A program made the position numbers and the translations under genes. Below are positions 53,652 to 60,615 of a stretch of DNA of 64,000 nt, piece after piece; position 1 is the stretch's first letter, and every line of letters starts with the position of its first letter. This stretch comes from Bacteroidota bacterium. GTDB taxonomy: Bacteria; Bacteroidota; Bacteroidia; NS11-12g; UBA9320. The stretch is from contig CANIKO010000004.1 of the NCBI GenBank assembly GCA_947468275.1, positions 62,001 to 126,000 of the forward strand, in the 5' to 3' direction. The notes under the pieces were generated by a model. That model was not told the DNA's origin. It searched no databases and saw only the letters and a program-made list of their open reading frames with translations.

Positions 53652-53951
53652 ATGAAAAAATTAATAATTTTATTAATTTTTGATTTTATTAATTTTGAGC
53701 TTTCAGCCCAAAATCAGAGGAAATATTTGCATGAAAATTATTTAGAAACAAAGAAAATTTCAGGCAATAATAATATGTTACTATTTACTAGTATATTTAG
53801 TAATATTTTAGGATATGGTAATGAACGTGGGGGGGGTGAATTCATTGGTTTGATAAACAATTGCCCCCCCCATAGGATAGATAGCCACCCACACCTAGTT
53901 TCTATTTATTTTTCCAATAAATTCCGAATGTTTTTCTTCTCATTTACTTAA
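53652..53951 (+). CDS. small exported ORF containing a G8...C8 hairpin
   Basis: 99 codons, beginning MKKLIILLIFDFINFELSAQ, a good signal peptide. The remaining sequence (HENYLETKKISGNNNML, FSNKFRMFFFSFT) has no recognisable domain. Eight G (53829-53836) and eight C (53864-53871) lie inside the frame. A one-base change in the G run puts a TGA directly after it or seven codons on, so the ORF can be switched off by slippage. It points into the HtrA-like/caspase genes 47 bp downstream. Real translation is uncertain. Confidence 0.45.
   Translation: MKKLIILLIFDFINFELSAQNQRKYLHENYLETKKISGNNNMLLFTSIFSNILGYGNERGGGEFIGLINNCPPHRIDSHPHLVSIYFSNKFRMFFFSFT
53829..53871. repeat. G8/C8 hairpin
   Basis: Eight G (53829-53836) and eight C (53864-53871) can pair around a 27-nt AT-rich loop, which is unusually stable in this AT-rich genome. 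It ends 127 bp before the HtrA-like start. It could be a slippage site, a transcript-ending structure or an mRNA element. Confidence 0.8.
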
Positions 53952-53998: not shown

Positions 53999-55471
53999 AT
54001 GAAAAAATCAATCTTAACAATCTCAGCGCTATTTTTATTAGTAGTTTATTCTTTTGCCCAATCTGCTTCAGCTGTATTAGAAAAATGTCTCGGAGCGGTA
54101 GTGACCGTTGCCGTTTATCAAACCGAACCTTTGGGTAAAATGACCTTAGGTATGCGTGGAAGTGTATCGGAAGATGCCTACAAACAAGCCCTCGACCTTA
54201 CTAATGCAAAAGGAAGCGGCTCTGGATTTATTATTAAAAAGAATGGTAAGTATTATGTGATTACTAATGCTCACGTGGTTGAATCTGCTTCAACTGAAAG
54301 TGGAAGTATTTATGTTTTCAGTATTAATCAAACAAAATACGAGTGTAAAGTTTTAGGTGGTGATTCATTTTATGATTTGGCTGTGCTTGAGTTTGTGACA
54401 ACTCCAGGTTCAGAAATTTCAACGGTAGAGTTTACCAAAACAGAACCGTTGGTAGGTGATAGAGTATTTGCCATTGGAAATCCCTTGGGAAGCTATCCTT
54501 ACAGTGTAACTGATGGAATTATAAGTGCTAAAAATCGTGCAAGAGGTGGACTAACAGGTAAGTTTGGATTTTTACAACATACTGCAACTATTATTTGGGG
54601 AAATAGCGGTGGGCCATTAATAAATGAAAAAGGTGAAGTGGTAGGTGTTAATTCTCAAATTGCTTTTGCAACAGCACCTGATGGATCTCAAGTATTACAA
54701 CAACAAATTAATTTTTCGTTGGAACCAAAAATTACCGAACGAATAATTACAGAAGTATTGAATAACAATGGACGTGTTAAGCGCTCTTATATTGGTCTTG
54801 AGGTTGCTCAAGCCTATAAAGTAGATGGTGAAAATTATACACTTCAGGATGAAGCTGCAAAAATATATGGAGTTATACCAGGTAGCAATGCCTACAGTTA
54901 TATGGGAAGTAAAATCGGTTATTTTATTACTAAAGTTAACGGTATAGCTACTCGTAATATTGAAGAAGTATTAGGCGAATTTGAAAAAATTGCCCCCAAT
55001 GGTAAAGTTGGACTTGAAATTAAATCACCTTCAGGAGCTATTGAAAATGTGAGCTTTACCGCAGGTACTTTAAGAAATATAGAATTGGATGCTATCGCAG
55101 GTTATGTATTGACTCAAATACCGGGTGTAACATTAAATACGTCTTATGGTCAAGTGGCTTTTGACTATAAAGAGGGAGGAAATCAATACACTCAAAAAGA
55201 AGATAAAAAGTTTTATCAGAATAAAAGAGGCGACGGTTCTTATGGAAAAACATACTTCGTACTATGTGGGGGTATTTATAATGAAAACAACCCTAACATG
55301 TGGAAAGTATTAACCTTAAGTCAATTGGGTGCAGCCATTAAATTGAGCGGTCTTAGCGGGGTATTTGATTATTATTTAAGTGATGCATCTAATCCTTCAG
55401 CTCAAGCTACTTTGTACCGCCAATATCTTTCAGGTGAAAGCACAATTATTAAATCAACCATTTACTATTAG
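53999..55471 (+). CDS. exported trypsin/HtrA-like serine protease with PDZ-like domain
   Basis: 490 residues. Signal peptide ends near residue 20 (VVYSFAQS). The protease domain (about 25-255) has the triad His92 (VITNAHVVE), Asp127 (FYDLAVLEF) and Ser203 (WGNSGGPLI), and GSGSGFII at 72-79. A degenerate PDZ-like domain follows (about 263-355; YIGLEVAQAYKV, GYFITKVNGIATRNIEEVLG, VGLEIKSPSG). The last about 130 residues (KFYQNKRGDGSYGKTYFVLC, SQLGAAIKLSGLSGVFDYYL) are not recognised. It is 39 bp upstream of a caspase-family gene, and both are exported, so they likely work together in the periplasm. Confidence 0.85.
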   Translation: MKKSILTISALFLLVVYSFAQSASAVLEKCLGAVVTVAVYQTEPLGKMTLGMRGSVSEDAYKQALDLTNAKGSGSGFIIKKNGKYYVITNAHVVESASTESGSIYVFSINQTKYECKVLGGDSFYDLAVLEFVTTPGSEISTVEFTKTEPLVGDRVFAIGNPLGSYPYSVTDGIISAKNRARGGLTGKFGFLQHTATIIWGNSGGPLINEKGEVVGVNSQIAFATAPDGSQVLQQQINFSLEPKITERIITEVLNNNGRVKRSYIGLEVAQAYKVDGENYTLQDEAAKIYGVIPGSNAYSYMGSKIGYFITKVNGIATRNIEEVLGEFEKIAPNGKVGLEIKSPSGAIENVSFTAGTLRNIELDAIAGYVLTQIPGVTLNTSYGQVAFDYKEGGNQYTQKEDKKFYQNKRGDGSYGKTYFVLCGGIYNENNPNMWKVLTLSQLGAAIKLSGLSGVFDYYLSDASNPSAQATLYRQYLSGESTIIKSTIYY

Positions 55472-55510
55472 TAGATTTTAGATATACGATTAAAGACTTA
55501 TAGATTTAAT

Positions 55511-57523
55511 ATGAAAAAATCACTCATCATTGTGGCCCTATTATTTGTAGCAATATTTGCACAGGCTCAAAGTAAAGTTGCACTAATTGTAGCCATCGGA
55601 AATTATGAACCTAACGGTGGCTGGAGCAGCATTAGTTCTCAAAACGATATACCATTAATAAAAGCAGCTTTGATTAAACAAGGATTTGCCGATAAAGATA
55701 TTCTTGTACTAAGTGATGCAGCCGCCACCAAAGATGGCATTATGAACGCCATAAAAACTCATTTGATTGGAAAATCTGCAAAAGATGGGATAGCTGTTTT
55801 TCATTACTCAGGTCATGGCCAGCAGATAATGGATAATAACGGTGATGAAATAGATGGTTATGATGAAGCTTTGGTTGCTTACAATGCTAAAGTCCGTTAT
55901 CAGCCTGGAGTTTATATCGGCCAAAATCACATACGTGATGAAGAATTGGGCGAACAGATGGATGTATTAAGAACAAAAATAGGCCCTAAAGGAAACGTGA
56001 TGGTTATATTGGATGCGTGCCATTCAGGAACTGGTACCCGTGGAGGAGGAAAACACAGAGGAACTGATAAACCATTAGAATCTGAAGGTTATGCGCAAAC
56101 TGTGAAAGATAAAAAAGCCGATAACAATGCCGTGTCGTCTAACCCAAGTGGCTCTGATAAAATGGCACCAATGGTTGGTTTTTTTGGAGCCAGTCCTCAT
56201 GAATTGAATTATGAAACAGAAGATGAAAATGGTAAAGGGGTTGGTTCATTAAGCTATGCATTTAGCAGAGTATTTGCCAATGCTGATAAAAATTCAACCT
56301 ATCGTGGATTATTTGATAAAATAAAAGTAGAAATGAGTGGTTTTGCACCACGCCAAACTCCGCAAGCCGAAGGAGACTTAGATTATACGATTTTAGGGGG
56401 TAAAATAGTTGGTAAGCAGGATTATTTTAAAGTTGATAAATGGAACGGGGACAAAGAAGTGGTGATAAATGGTGGCGAACTTTTAGGGTTATTTACTAAC
56501 ACTAAAGTAGCTTTTTACGATATAGATACCAAGGATGTGAGCAAAGCCAAACCTAAAGCCACAGGAAAAGTAACTTCAGCTACTTTTACCAATGCTACCG
56601 TAACTTTAGATGCACCGCTTGACAAAAATGCAGCGTTGGGATCATGGATTTTCGTAACCGAAAAAAACTATGGAAATCTTGAAATAAAAGTAAAATTGGA
56701 AGTAAGTAATGATGGATTAAAAAAGGCCATCATGGCTGAGTTTGCAAAATATCCTTTTATTAAAACTGTGAAAGACGGAGTTTCTGATATTATTGTAGAT
56801 GAAGGAAATACTCACAGCCGCGGTAATCAAATAAAACTAACTTCTTCTAATGATGCTATTCTTTTAGAAGAACCTGTGAACAGTAACATAGCTTTAACTG
56901 CTGAATCGGTTGTTGAAAAAGTAAAAACTTTCAGCCAGGCTTCATACATTAGAGGATTGAGTGTGACCGATGCTAAAATGGATGTAAGGTTTGAATTTAT
57001 TCCCATTGAAACCTTAAAAGAAGGAGAGAAGATAAAAGAAAAATCACGAGGAGATATTGCTTCCAAAACTGATGAAACCGGTGTAATGACTTTTAAAGTT
57101 GAGGAAGCTTATAAAATTAAAATAACCAACAACGGTACCAAACCGCTTTATTTTACCATTATTGATATTCAGCCGGATAACGTTATAAATTTAGTGGTAC
57201 CAAATGCCAGCACCGGCCGTTTGCCATTGGATTACAGACTTAATCCGGGTGAAACTAAAGAATTGGGCGATGATGATATTATTGTATTTTATCCTCCAAC
57301 CGGAAATGAAGTTTTTAAACTGATAGCTACCGAAACACCTTTGGATTTGTCATCCATTATTAAAACCCGCGGCGAATCAAGCCGTGGTGAAAAAGATGCC
57401 AATCCATTCTCTGTATTGTTTGCCGAAACTTACAAATCAGGCGGTAGTCGAGGCGGAGGAATGCCAAACGTGCCACAAGGAAGTGCCAATGTGTATTCCG
57501 TAACCTTTAAAATTGTAGAATAA
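55511..57523 (+). CDS. exported caspase-family (C14-like) protease with DUF4384-like domain
   Basis: 670 residues. Signal peptide ends near residue 20 (AIFAQAQS). The caspase fold (about 21-300) has catalytic His102 in HYSGHGQQ and Cys170 in VILDACHSGTG, with the metacaspase-type DEIDGYDEALV between. A middle region (about 310-520) is beta-rich. A DUF4384-like domain lies at about 530-615 (GTKPLYFTIIDIQPDNVINL, PLDYRLNPGETKEL, NEVFKLIATETPLD), and the tail is Gly/Arg-rich (SGGSRGGGMPN). It follows the HtrA-like gene on the same strand by 39 bp. Substrates are unknown; a proteolytic cascade between the two is my inference. Confidence 0.88.
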   Translation: MKKSLIIVALLFVAIFAQAQSKVALIVAIGNYEPNGGWSSISSQNDIPLIKAALIKQGFADKDILVLSDAAATKDGIMNAIKTHLIGKSAKDGIAVFHYSGHGQQIMDNNGDEIDGYDEALVAYNAKVRYQPGVYIGQNHIRDEELGEQMDVLRTKIGPKGNVMVILDACHSGTGTRGGGKHRGTDKPLESEGYAQTVKDKKADNNAVSSNPSGSDKMAPMVGFFGASPHELNYETEDENGKGVGSLSYAFSRVFANADKNSTYRGLFDKIKVEMSGFAPRQTPQAEGDLDYTILGGKIVGKQDYFKVDKWNGDKEVVINGGELLGLFTNTKVAFYDIDTKDVSKAKPKATGKVTSATFTNATVTLDAPLDKNAALGSWIFVTEKNYGNLEIKVKLEVSNDGLKKAIMAEFAKYPFIKTVKDGVSDIIVDEGNTHSRGNQIKLTSSNDAILLEEPVNSNIALTAESVVEKVKTFSQASYIRGLSVTDAKMDVRFEFIPIETLKEGEKIKEKSRGDIASKTDETGVMTFKVEEAYKIKITNNGTKPLYFTIIDIQPDNVINLVVPNASTGRLPLDYRLNPGETKELGDDDIIVFYPPTGNEVFKLIATETPLDLSSIIKTRGESSRGEKDANPFSVLFAETYKSGGSRGGGMPNVPQGSANVYSVTFKIVE

Positions 57524-57550: not shown

Positions 57551-57598
57551 ACCACCCGCTGAAGCATATAAATAAGCTTGCTTCACGGGTGGTTTTTT
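57551..57598 (+). terminator. strong intrinsic terminator after the caspase gene
   Basis: ACCACCCGCTGAAGC (57551-57565) pairs with GCTTCACGGGTGGT (57580-57593), followed by seven T. It closes the HtrA-like/caspase unit. Confidence 0.9.
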
Positions 57599-57646
57599 TG
57601 TGGCTTTTTGCCACAAATGCTCAAAATTCCTTTAACTATTTTTCAT

Positions 57647-57680
57647 AAAAAAAGCCCAAACTTTTGTTTGGGCTTTTTTG
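57647..57680. terminator. bidirectional intrinsic terminator
   Basis: AGCCCAAAC (57653-57661) pairs with GTTTGGGCT (57666-57674) around TTTT, with A-run on one side and T-run on the other. It serves the lipoprotein gene on the minus strand and backs up the caspase terminator. Confidence 0.9.
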
Positions 57681-58272: not shown

Positions 58273-60615
58273 TCAATGTTGTTTTAATAATCTAATAAAA
58301 GTTGATCCCACATTAAGAAAATAGAGACCGGCTAATTCGTTTTCTATGGATATAGTATTGATACCATGGTGCAAATAACCGGACCGAATAGTCTTTCCGG
58401 TTATATCTGTTATGAAATAGAGTTCCATTGAAGTTCCTGAATAGTTTATTGAAAAAATGTCTTTAGAAGGATTTGGATAAACCACTAAATAGGATGATGG
58501 ATTAATTTTATTAATACCCAAATTAGCTATGGTATAACAATCCGATGTATCAACACAACCATTTTGAGTGACGATTACCGCATAACTTCCGTTTGCTTTC
58601 AAAATAAAAGACCGGTTAGTCTCACCATTAATGGGAGTAAAGCTATTTTTACAGTCAACCCATTGGTAAGTATCCCCCTTGGATGAAGCATTAAGAACTA
58701 AACTATCTTGAATTACTGAAACATCTATGGTATTGATGGTTAAATTTAACATAACCACACTATCACAACCATTAGCAGCACCACCCAAAATGCGGTATGT
58801 AGCCGAATCATTATTCTTCGTGTAAGTCTTTCCATCTATCCAGGTCAATGAATTGCAAGCTTTTTGATGATCGATACCAAAAGTGATTGGTAGAATTTTT
58901 AAATTAAGCGTCACAATGCTATCACAACTGCTTGAAGCGCCATTTGAAATGCGAAACGTAGCCGAATTATTGCTGGTTGTGTATGTTTTTCCATCTAACC
59001 AGGTCAAAGAATTACAGGTAACATGTGAATCAATTCCATAAGCAATTGGAAGGATAGTTAATTTGAGATTAACAATACTATCGCAACCATTGGCGGCCCC
59101 ACCTGTAATGTGATAAATAGCAGTATCATTGCTTGCTGTGTAAGTCTTTCCATCTATCCAAGTAATAGATTGACAGGAAGTTTGATTATCAATACCTAAA
59201 GCAATTGGAAGAATGTTTAATTTTAGATAAACGATACTATCGCATCCGTTTGCAGCACCACCTTTTATTTGGTATGTAGCAGTGTCATTGCTTGCTGTAT
59301 AGGTTTTTCCATCAATCCATGTGTACGAATGGCATTCGGTATGATTATCAATTCCTTTTGCGATTGGTTTAATTGTAAGGTTCAGAATTACTAAACTGTC
59401 ATTTCCGTTTTTATCACCTTTAATAATATTAAATTTTACTGTTTTTATACTTTTAGTATAGGTTTTACCATCTATCCATTTTAATGAACCACATGCTTTT
59501 TTAGTATCAATACCAAAAGAACCGAGATATGATTTATCTACTTTGCAATTCAGATAATCTTCCATAGCATTTGAGGATGAAGAATAACATAAAGTAGAGT
59601 ATCCGAGAGAATCTTCTTTAGAAATTGCACTCGATTTAAAGCCCATTATTTCAAGATAAAACTTGTAAAGTTTTGAGCGCAAAACTACTTTTTGGGTAAA
59701 GGCAGAGGAGGAATATGATCTGCATTCTAACCCTCCGTTAATGATATTATTGGTATGAGCAAAACCTTTATAATACATTTTAGAGGACGAATAAGCGCTG
59801 TCGTGTAACCATTGATCGTGCATCACCTGATGACACGAAGGCTTAGGACATTGGGGCATCATCCAAAACCAAATAGCACTTTTAAATGCTAAAACCCCGT
59901 TTTCTTGTAAAGAATCTGGATATTTTAACAATACATTTTTGTCGTTATAAATGAATTTACTGAATTGACCGTAGTTATAGTTCCATGATAATTGAATAGG
60001 ACCTCTTCCGTAATACCCAACGCTTGAATCCGGAGGATATTCGGCATGTGTTTGGGAGTAGGTACCTTTTCCATTGGTTTTAGTATATCCGACCTCATGA
60101 ACAAAGTACAAACCCCATTTTGCATAATCCCCAGCCGAACCTCCACCCACAGGAAATTCCCATCCTCCCGTTGTTTCTTTAGAAATATTGGCCAAAAAAG
60201 CGGCTAATTCACGCTTATTGTTTGTCTGAGAATTTTCATTGAGGAAATTTTCGAAATCAACAACTACAATGGTTTCAGGTGTTGAATTAGAATACCACCA
60301 GGAATCTACATCTGAATATTTATAAGTCTTTAAATTAGATTTTCTGGTGATGGTTATAAGCTGGCCCCAAACTCCTTTTTTAGTTCTTATTAGCACAAAG
60401 TAATCAGCCATTTCATTGGCGGCCTGATTGATATTTTTGTAGGAATAAAAATCGGAAGTGTAACCTTGCGGATGTGTTCCATAAGTTCCTGCTCGCCTAG
60501 GAAATAAAGAATCCCATCCTGAACTGGAAATTAATTTTTGAACACTATTCACTTGTGCATAGGAATTTAATGTAAGAAAACTGACATAAACGAAAAGTTT
60601 AATATTCAATTTCAT
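58273..60615 (-). CDS. secreted GH19 chitinase-like protein with five repeats and T9SS type A sorting domain
   Basis: 780 residues, signal peptide to about 20 (LTLNSYAQV). The GH19 domain spans about 120-345. The catalytic acid is Glu147 in SKETTGGW and the second acid Glu174 in GLYFVHEVG; YYGRGPIQLSWNYNYG and NNIINGGLECR are further family motifs. It should cleave beta-1,4 linkages in chitin or peptidoglycan-like polymers. Five 53-residue repeats follow (367-631), then an Ig-like domain (YQWVDCKNSFTPINGETNRS) and a sorting domain (VVYPNPSKDIFSINY, ELAGLYFLNV). The repeats may form a disulfide-bonded stalk. Confidence 0.9.
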   Translation of the reverse strand: MKLNIKLFVYVSFLTLNSYAQVNSVQKLISSSGWDSLFPRRAGTYGTHPQGYTSDFYSYKNINQAANEMADYFVLIRTKKGVWGQLITITRKSNLKTYKYSDVDSWWYSNSTPETIVVVDFENFLNENSQTNNKRELAAFLANISKETTGGWEFPVGGGSAGDYAKWGLYFVHEVGYTKTNGKGTYSQTHAEYPPDSSVGYYGRGPIQLSWNYNYGQFSKFIYNDKNVLLKYPDSLQENGVLAFKSAIWFWMMPQCPKPSCHQVMHDQWLHDSAYSSSKMYYKGFAHTNNIINGGLECRSYSSSAFTQKVVLRSKLYKFYLEIMGFKSSAISKEDSLGYSTLCYSSSSNAMEDYLNCKVDKSYLGSFGIDTKKACGSLKWIDGKTYTKSIKTVKFNIIKGDKNGNDSLVILNLTIKPIAKGIDNHTECHSYTWIDGKTYTASNDTATYQIKGGAANGCDSIVYLKLNILPIALGIDNQTSCQSITWIDGKTYTASNDTAIYHITGGAANGCDSIVNLKLTILPIAYGIDSHVTCNSLTWLDGKTYTTSNNSATFRISNGASSSCDSIVTLNLKILPITFGIDHQKACNSLTWIDGKTYTKNNDSATYRILGGAANGCDSVVMLNLTINTIDVSVIQDSLVLNASSKGDTYQWVDCKNSFTPINGETNRSFILKANGSYAVIVTQNGCVDTSDCYTIANLGINKINPSSYLVVYPNPSKDIFSINYSGTSMELYFITDITGKTIRSGYLHHGINTISIENELAGLYFLNVGSTFIRLLKQH
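58720..59514 (-). repeat. five 159-bp coding repeats in the chitinase
   Basis: Five copies start at 59514, 59355, 59196, 59037 and 58878 (minus-strand sense). Each begins GID and contains a Cys, (W)IDGKTYT, a variable strand, then GCDSIV and an ILPI-like end. Copies 2-5 have two Cys each, but copy 1 has GNDS where the others have GCDS, so it has only one. DNA identity is moderate, so the array is old rather than recently expanded. Confidence 0.85.

Follow-up and report, generated by a model that had tools for sequence, protein, structure and literature searches.

An exported-looking metacaspase-type protease genetically tied to an HtrA-like or a V8-ankyrin serine protease within an order of Bacteroidota, and a possible activation cascade in the cell envelope

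In a stretch of 64,000 nucleotides from a Bacteroidota bacterium (assembly GCA_947468275.1, contig CANIKO010000004.1, positions 62,001 to 126,000), hereafter called the window, we analyzed two adjacent genes encoding an HtrA-like serine protease (family A2) and a caspase-family protease of the metacaspase type (family A1). An earlier note on this DNA had described them as an exported protease pair forming one unit, and this layout was borne out. Both genes are located on the same strand and are separated by 39 bp (Table 1), and the unit is closed by a strong terminator consisting of a hairpin of -24.9 kcal/mol (z -3.9 compared to shuffled sequences) and a run of seven T residues. A simple terminator scan reported four sites in the region, one of them at 57648-57679, compared to a shuffled mean of 2.8; the hairpin is absent from this list, its loop exceeding the length that the scan permits. 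The junction between the two genes folded no better than shuffled sequences. The N-termini, read by eye, resemble signal peptides ending in SFAQ (A2) and AQAQ (A1), as claimed in the note. Since neither protein showed a Pfam match up to E 1 to a sorting tail of a secretion system, a periplasmic location of both proteases is the simplest inference.

Table 1. Positions of the protease pair and of related features. Positions refer to the window, except in the last row, where they refer to the loci named.
Feature	Position	Strand	Details
HtrA-like exported-looking serine protease, family A2	53999..55471	+	490 amino acids; triad His92, Asp126, Ser203
Trypsin_2 domain of the HtrA-like protein	54218..54649	+	residues 74-217; Pfam
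C-terminal region common to family A2	55241..55468	+	about residues 415-490; [LI][WY]Y end
Exported-looking metacaspase-type (caspase-family) protease carrying DUF4384, family A1	55511..57523	+	670 amino acids; dyad His102, Cys170
Peptidase_C14 domain of A1	55574..56371	+	residues 22-287; Pfam
DUF4384 domain of A1	57113..57340	+	residues 535-610; Pfam
A1 R177-G178 and R183-G184, after the catalytic Cys	56039..56062	+	candidate self-processing sites
A1 Ser-Arg-Gly, residues 646-648	57446..57454	+	Arg conserved in variable linker; candidate self-processing site
Intrinsic terminator	57551..57600	+	hairpin 57551-57593 and T run
Shorter caspase relatives	L071 6895-7953; L072 9375-10445; L073 9390-10436; L074 5023-6093; L078 9202-10266; L080 13-1083		

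The caspase of the window matched Peptidase_C14 (1.5e-17) and, as had been suspected, DUF4384 (8.5e-07), both above the Pfam cut-offs. The His-Cys dyad was found intact in 37/37 full-length A1 proteins, and DUF4384 was present in the C-terminal half of 13 of the 16 members of the A1 alignment that were scanned with Pfam. Among the solved relatives, those named after a function are metacaspases. Relatives from viral contigs (56 loci) matched only the first approximately 300 residues. Two acidic residues, D168 (37/37) and D46 (36/37, the remaining row being truncated at this position), are candidates for the S1 site and, as judged from the metacaspase alignment, probably equivalent to the S1 residues Asp95 and Asp211 of TbMCA2 (PMC4357240). 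Orthocaspases cleave after positively charged residues (PMC6426788), and the acidic residues of A1 would suit cleavage after Arg or Lys. Among metacaspases, dependence of the activity on calcium is widespread, though not universal.

The HtrA-like protein of the window matched Trypsin_2 at 3e-30, above the Pfam cut-off, and its catalytic triad is intact. Of the catalytic residues named in the earlier note, His92 and Ser203 of A2 and His102 and Cys170 of A1 stood, whereas its Asp127 is a leucine and the catalytic Asp is residue 126. An alignment with DegQ covers residues 22-341 of A2, but the score against TIGR02037 (NCBIfam) was 170.9 bits and thus below the cut-off of 416.2 bits. PDZ domains were matched only under the Pfam cut-offs (PDZ_1 in 2/5 members, PDZ_6 in 1/5). 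After one partial HtrA row had been dropped, all 13 full-length A2 proteins were found to terminate with [LI][WY]Y. This end occurs in none of 22 ordinary HtrA proteins of the order (22 open reading frames (ORFs) read from the 23 loci L039-L061), nine of which end with Tyr after aromatic residues. C-terminal ligands are bound by PDZ domains of HtrA proteins, as described for AlgW (PMC8545111), and one may speculate that the similar end of A2 serves self-regulation.

To describe the distribution of the pair, A1 was searched in the order with E-values up to 1e-40, and A1 and A2 in a draw of the class with E-values up to 1e-60; in the class and in the phylum, up to three candidates per genome were scored. 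In a set of 58 genomes including that of the window, the caspase was present in 20 and a close HtrA relative (at least 390 bits) in seven, all of which (7/7) also possessed the caspase. In the 108 genomes of the order, A1 was found in 22 and A2 in seven, and again each A2 genome also holds A1. The class draw (395 genomes) yielded A2 in 14 genomes, A1 in 23 (including partial or poor profile matches in G575, G794 and G809 and genes cut by contig ends or stops in G619 and G822) and both in 13. A2 adjoins A1 in 10 of the 14 A2 genomes (G000, G001, G002, G005, G037, G561, G619, G644, G666, G747), in two orientations, in four families and with differing flanking genes. In genus g1 the two genes are arranged in tandem, and in g13, which belongs to another family, divergently with 133 and 221 bp between them. 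Tandem pairs are separated by no more than 39 bp, and in G644 the genes overlap when the longest start is assumed. Among 395 genomes drawn from the phylum, 52 matched A1 at E up to 1e-20, seven of them along most of the profile. The pair is thus conserved beyond close relatives, contrary to what the earlier note had named as a ground for abandoning its reading, and forms a real, lasting genetic unit. That the genes are neighbors by chance, as could be read from their location on different contigs in three genomes (G534, G621, G646), is hardly credible, because the two genes are found together again in further families and in different contexts.

Within the genus of the window the presence of the pair is variable. 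G003 and G006 (77% complete) contain neither A1 nor A2. In G004 both genes (L066 5395-8911) are broken by several in-frame stops, so the pair seems dispensable there. G005 has a broken HtrA gene. Both are draft genomes, in which such breaks may reflect error.

In most A1 genomes of the order that lack A2, another protease gene, here called A3, is located directly after the caspase gene or after a second, shorter caspase relative. A3, searched within the order only (E up to 1e-20), encodes an exported-looking trypsin-fold (V8-like) protease with ankyrin repeats (Pfam Trypsin_2 and Ank in the one member scanned) and was found in 16 genomes. Seven of the 22 genomes with A1 in the order carry A2, 14 carry A3, none carries both, and only G055 has A1 alone. 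Among the other 86 genomes A3 was present in two, G475 and G478, the match in G475 spanning only the last 214 model positions. Co-occurrence of A1 with A2 or A3 in the order gave a Fisher value of 4e-19 with shared ancestry ignored. A1 and A3 lie on one contig in 12/14 genomes, whereas in G014 and G022 the genes are located at contig ends; where the two are directly adjacent the gap is 5-150 bp. The caspase of G020 is divided between two ORFs. A1, a metacaspase-type protease with an export-signal-like start, is thus genetically tied within the order to either A2 or A3.

The shorter caspase relative, which is also exported-looking, lies beside an active A1 and before A3 where the contig continues (L080 ends at the contig end). 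In five of the six cases DAGFG replaces DACHSG at the catalytic Cys, and in L080 the pattern found nothing. This replacement suggests that the relative has lost its catalytic activity and is retained in the cluster, perhaps in a regulatory role.

The pairing of A1 with a serine protease could also result from co-regulated envelope proteolysis, in which both proteases are produced in response to one condition and each attacks substrates of its own, with no processing of one by the other. The operon-like layout would fit, as would the divergent pairs of two genomes, with 133-221 bp between the genes, and the additional exported-looking proteases found close to A1 in several relatives, such as a second caspase relative, WD40- and TPR-caspases, TPR-CHAT proteins and an M61 peptidase. 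Co-regulation alone leaves unexplained, however, why A2 or A3, but never both, accompanies A1 in 21 of the 22 genomes, and we regard it as somewhat doubtful.

The A1 proteins are rich in (S/T)RG motifs. The 37 proteins contain 147, compared to a mean of 9.5 and a maximum of 20 after shuffling (about 15-fold), which corresponds to 5.9 motifs per 1000 amino acids. A control set of 71 further caspases, taken from loci L088-L110 and L214-L261 but not L262-L269, had 1.07, and 292 neighboring ORFs had 0.43. After two partial caspase rows had been dropped, R183-G184 was present in 35/35 rows and R647 in 34/35, both within poorly conserved stretches. The motif excess and these conserved residues are good sequence evidence and suggest, as the natural reading, that A1 matures itself at Arg-Gly motifs.

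Candidate sites for cleavage are also present in the partner proteins. In A3, 18/18 distinct full N-termini have an Arg ahead of the V8 domain with Gly, Asp or Asn as the next residue (22 rows, four of them repeats of a gene; one partial and, for this count, two truncated V8-ankyrin rows were dropped), and this conserved Arg is a candidate activation site. In A2, Arg-Gly precedes the catalytic domain in 12/13 proteins, and the DegQ alignment places it in the N-terminal loop region, which we take to be loop LA. In the inactive state of HtrA/DegP, loop LA makes inhibitory contacts (PMC4339722). Judged from these motifs, cleavage by A1 appears plausible for A3 and possible for A2.

We tentatively favor, at somewhat less than even confidence, a two-gene envelope protease module in which mature A1 switches on its partner serine protease. 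As expected from known families, A1 would cut after Arg or Lys and mature by cutting its own (S/T)R-G motifs. Mature A1 might then cut the N-terminal segment of its partner, at Arg-Gly/Asp/Asn in A3 or at the Arg-Gly within the loop that precedes the catalytic domain of A2, and this cut would switch on the serine protease, which would perform bulk periplasmic proteolysis after an envelope signal. A zymogen relay of this kind is plausible, and the fuller statement, a periplasmic cascade of Bacteroidota driven by an exported, Arg-specific metacaspase that switches on either of two interchangeable partners, HtrA-like or V8-ankyrin, by an N-terminal cut, is possible but held with more reserve.

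The order of events might also be reversed, with a serine protease, in the HtrA case via its PDZ-like region, sensing misfolded envelope protein and processing the caspase as executor. In trypsin, an acidic residue six positions before the catalytic Ser gives a preference for Arg and Lys. A3 has Asp (23/24 rows) or Glu (1/24) at this position (20 distinct proteins), so that A3 could cut the Arg-Gly sites of the caspase. A2, in contrast, has Thr there in 5/5 aligned members, which by this rule makes cleavage after Arg unlikely, and its PDZ region stayed below the Pfam cut-offs. Sensing as such has a precedent in the HtrA relative AlgW, which responds to mislocalised outer membrane proteins (PMC8545111). 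On balance we consider the reverse order improbable.

Several observations weigh against activation of the partner by A1 as proposed here, in addition to the three genomes with A1 and A2 on separate contigs. Outside the order, the stretch read around eight full-length A1 loci (G203, G207, G237, G241, G343, G430, G558, G720) contained no A2, A3 or GNSGG protein, and the same holds true for the second A1 copy of G052; conversely, G567 has A2 without A1 at E 1e-60. The control caspases are mostly single-domain proteins, so the motif excess of A1 may in part stem from its C-terminal half as such. R183 may be an older caspase residue, since Arg-Tyr or Arg-Phe occurs close to this position in a large number of other bacterial caspases. 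No (S/T)RG motif is present in A2, and since 13/22 ordinary HtrA proteins of the order carry Arg-Gly in their N-terminal region, this dipeptide is no special mark of A2; its candidacy as a dedicated caspase site was weakened accordingly. The A2 protein of G567, whose genome lacks A1, also lacks the Gly, but it deviates at nine other otherwise invariant columns and was given no weight. AlphaFold models of both window proteins, based on alignments of three and four rows, reached a mean predicted local distance difference test score (pLDDT) of 28.7 and 45.1, too low to use.

The deep branches of the A1 and A2 trees likewise conflict: A2 joins families f82 and f90 (89/94), whereas A1 joins g13 and f82 (96/96), so that matching histories of the two proteins were not found at depth. 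In the tree of 37 caspases, the A3-associated A1 proteins form one side of a branch (87/92). The g1 proteins fall into a cluster (90/88) together with those of families f107 and f90, whose genomes contain A2, and of G343 and G720, where no partner was seen, and not with those of their own family, which have A3; the finer order (80/78) is poorly resolved. This tree fits either a pair moving as a unit or old duplicates followed by losses. Taken together, the paired-protease interpretation of the earlier note held in part: the pair is a lasting unit, and A3 replaces A2 in most other A1 genomes of the order, but the eight full-length A1 loci outside the order showed neither A2 nor A3 beside them, and the periplasmic cascade or stress response proposed in the note is hypothetical.

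With respect to the surroundings, the immediate neighbors of the window pair encode 3-dehydroquinate synthase and a protein of 120 amino acids without Pfam match. The window genome contains a single C14 match, the A1 protein itself, a single CHAT match located elsewhere, and two HtrA-like genes besides A2. Just upstream of the pair, at 53652-53951 (+), lies an ORF of 99 codons with a signal-peptide-like start that is possibly a decayed gene; its runs of eight G and eight C residues, about 30 bp apart, can pair, with a fold no better than shuffles. Downstream, at 58273-60615 (-), an exported-looking protein of 780 amino acids has, as read by eye, a chitinase-like N-terminal part and several C.S.TWIDGKTYT repeats.

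CHAT proteases are usually treated as cytosolic. TPR-CHAT proteins with signal-peptide-like starts were seen in relatives, next to the pair or next to A1 (L067 2841-6479, L068 9831-13466, L157 4644-7778), the CHAT assignment being based on Pfam for L157 and on a motif read by eye for L067 and L068. Several of the A1 loci that showed neither partner lie beside WD40-, TPR-, CHAT- or further caspase-domain proteins that also have signal-peptide-like starts. In several relatives, A1 lies next to caspase, CHAT and WD40 proteins that likewise look exported. This would suit an envelope conflict or cell-death device directed against self or neighbors, with the pair as one caspase-family effector among several. 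The patchy presence of the pair (none in G003 and G006) and the decay of both genes in G004 point in the same direction, and extracellular roles of metacaspases have been discussed (PMC3501461). The immediate neighbors of the window pair, however, include no NTPase, effector-associated or nuclease gene, and PADLOC gave only weak matches at the level of domains. The label of a known defence system was rejected on the latter ground, and a conflict device in general appears quite unlikely.

Prokaryotic caspases have mostly been discussed as intracellular death or defence enzymes. An exported-looking caspase family that keeps an HtrA-like or V8-ankyrin partner would put caspase-type signalling in the bacterial envelope, and the cascade, if true, would be an extracytoplasmic counterpart of caspase cascades; A1 and its partner are a small pair that is directly testable. 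A literature search covering titles and the beginnings of abstracts, with few subscription journals, revealed no description of the A1-A2 pair or of the two alternative partners.

Several known systems share features with the pair. HtrA, DegP, DegQ and DegS resemble A2 in the catalytic triad, the trypsin-fold domain and the N-terminal layout, whereas A2 scores below the TIGR02037 cut-off and has a weak PDZ region, its own C-terminal region and a caspase partner. Metacaspases and orthocaspases (C14) share the C14 domain and the His-Cys dyad with A1, which differs by its export-signal-like start, the C-terminal DUF4384, the richness in (S/T)RG and the neighboring serine protease. Fragipain, a member of family C11, resembles A1 in its clan CD fold and, as far as the start of A1 suggests, in its export. 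This Bacteroides cysteine protease activates inactive precursors (protoxins) (PMC8406203), as proposed for A1, but neither window protein showed a Peptidase_C11 match at E up to 1, and the partner of A1 is a serine protease. DUF4384 in prokaryotic caspases, as well as N-terminal helices that are possibly signal peptides, are already in print. Proteolysis domains were counted in 23 of 217 metacaspase operons and extracellular roles were discussed (PMC3501461), so that neither exported caspases nor operons that combine caspases with proteases are novel as such. In conflict systems with caspase and trypsin proteases and in nucleases activated by proteases (ternary systems, Hachiman/AVAST pairs, canu), such proteases share gene neighborhoods, as A1 and A2 do, and a partner is activated by cleavage (PMC7159879, PMC12799240); the passages on these systems describe NTPase, effector-associated or nuclease parts and name no export signal of the proteases, whereas the A1-A2 pair of the window has signal-peptide-like starts and no such parts next to it.

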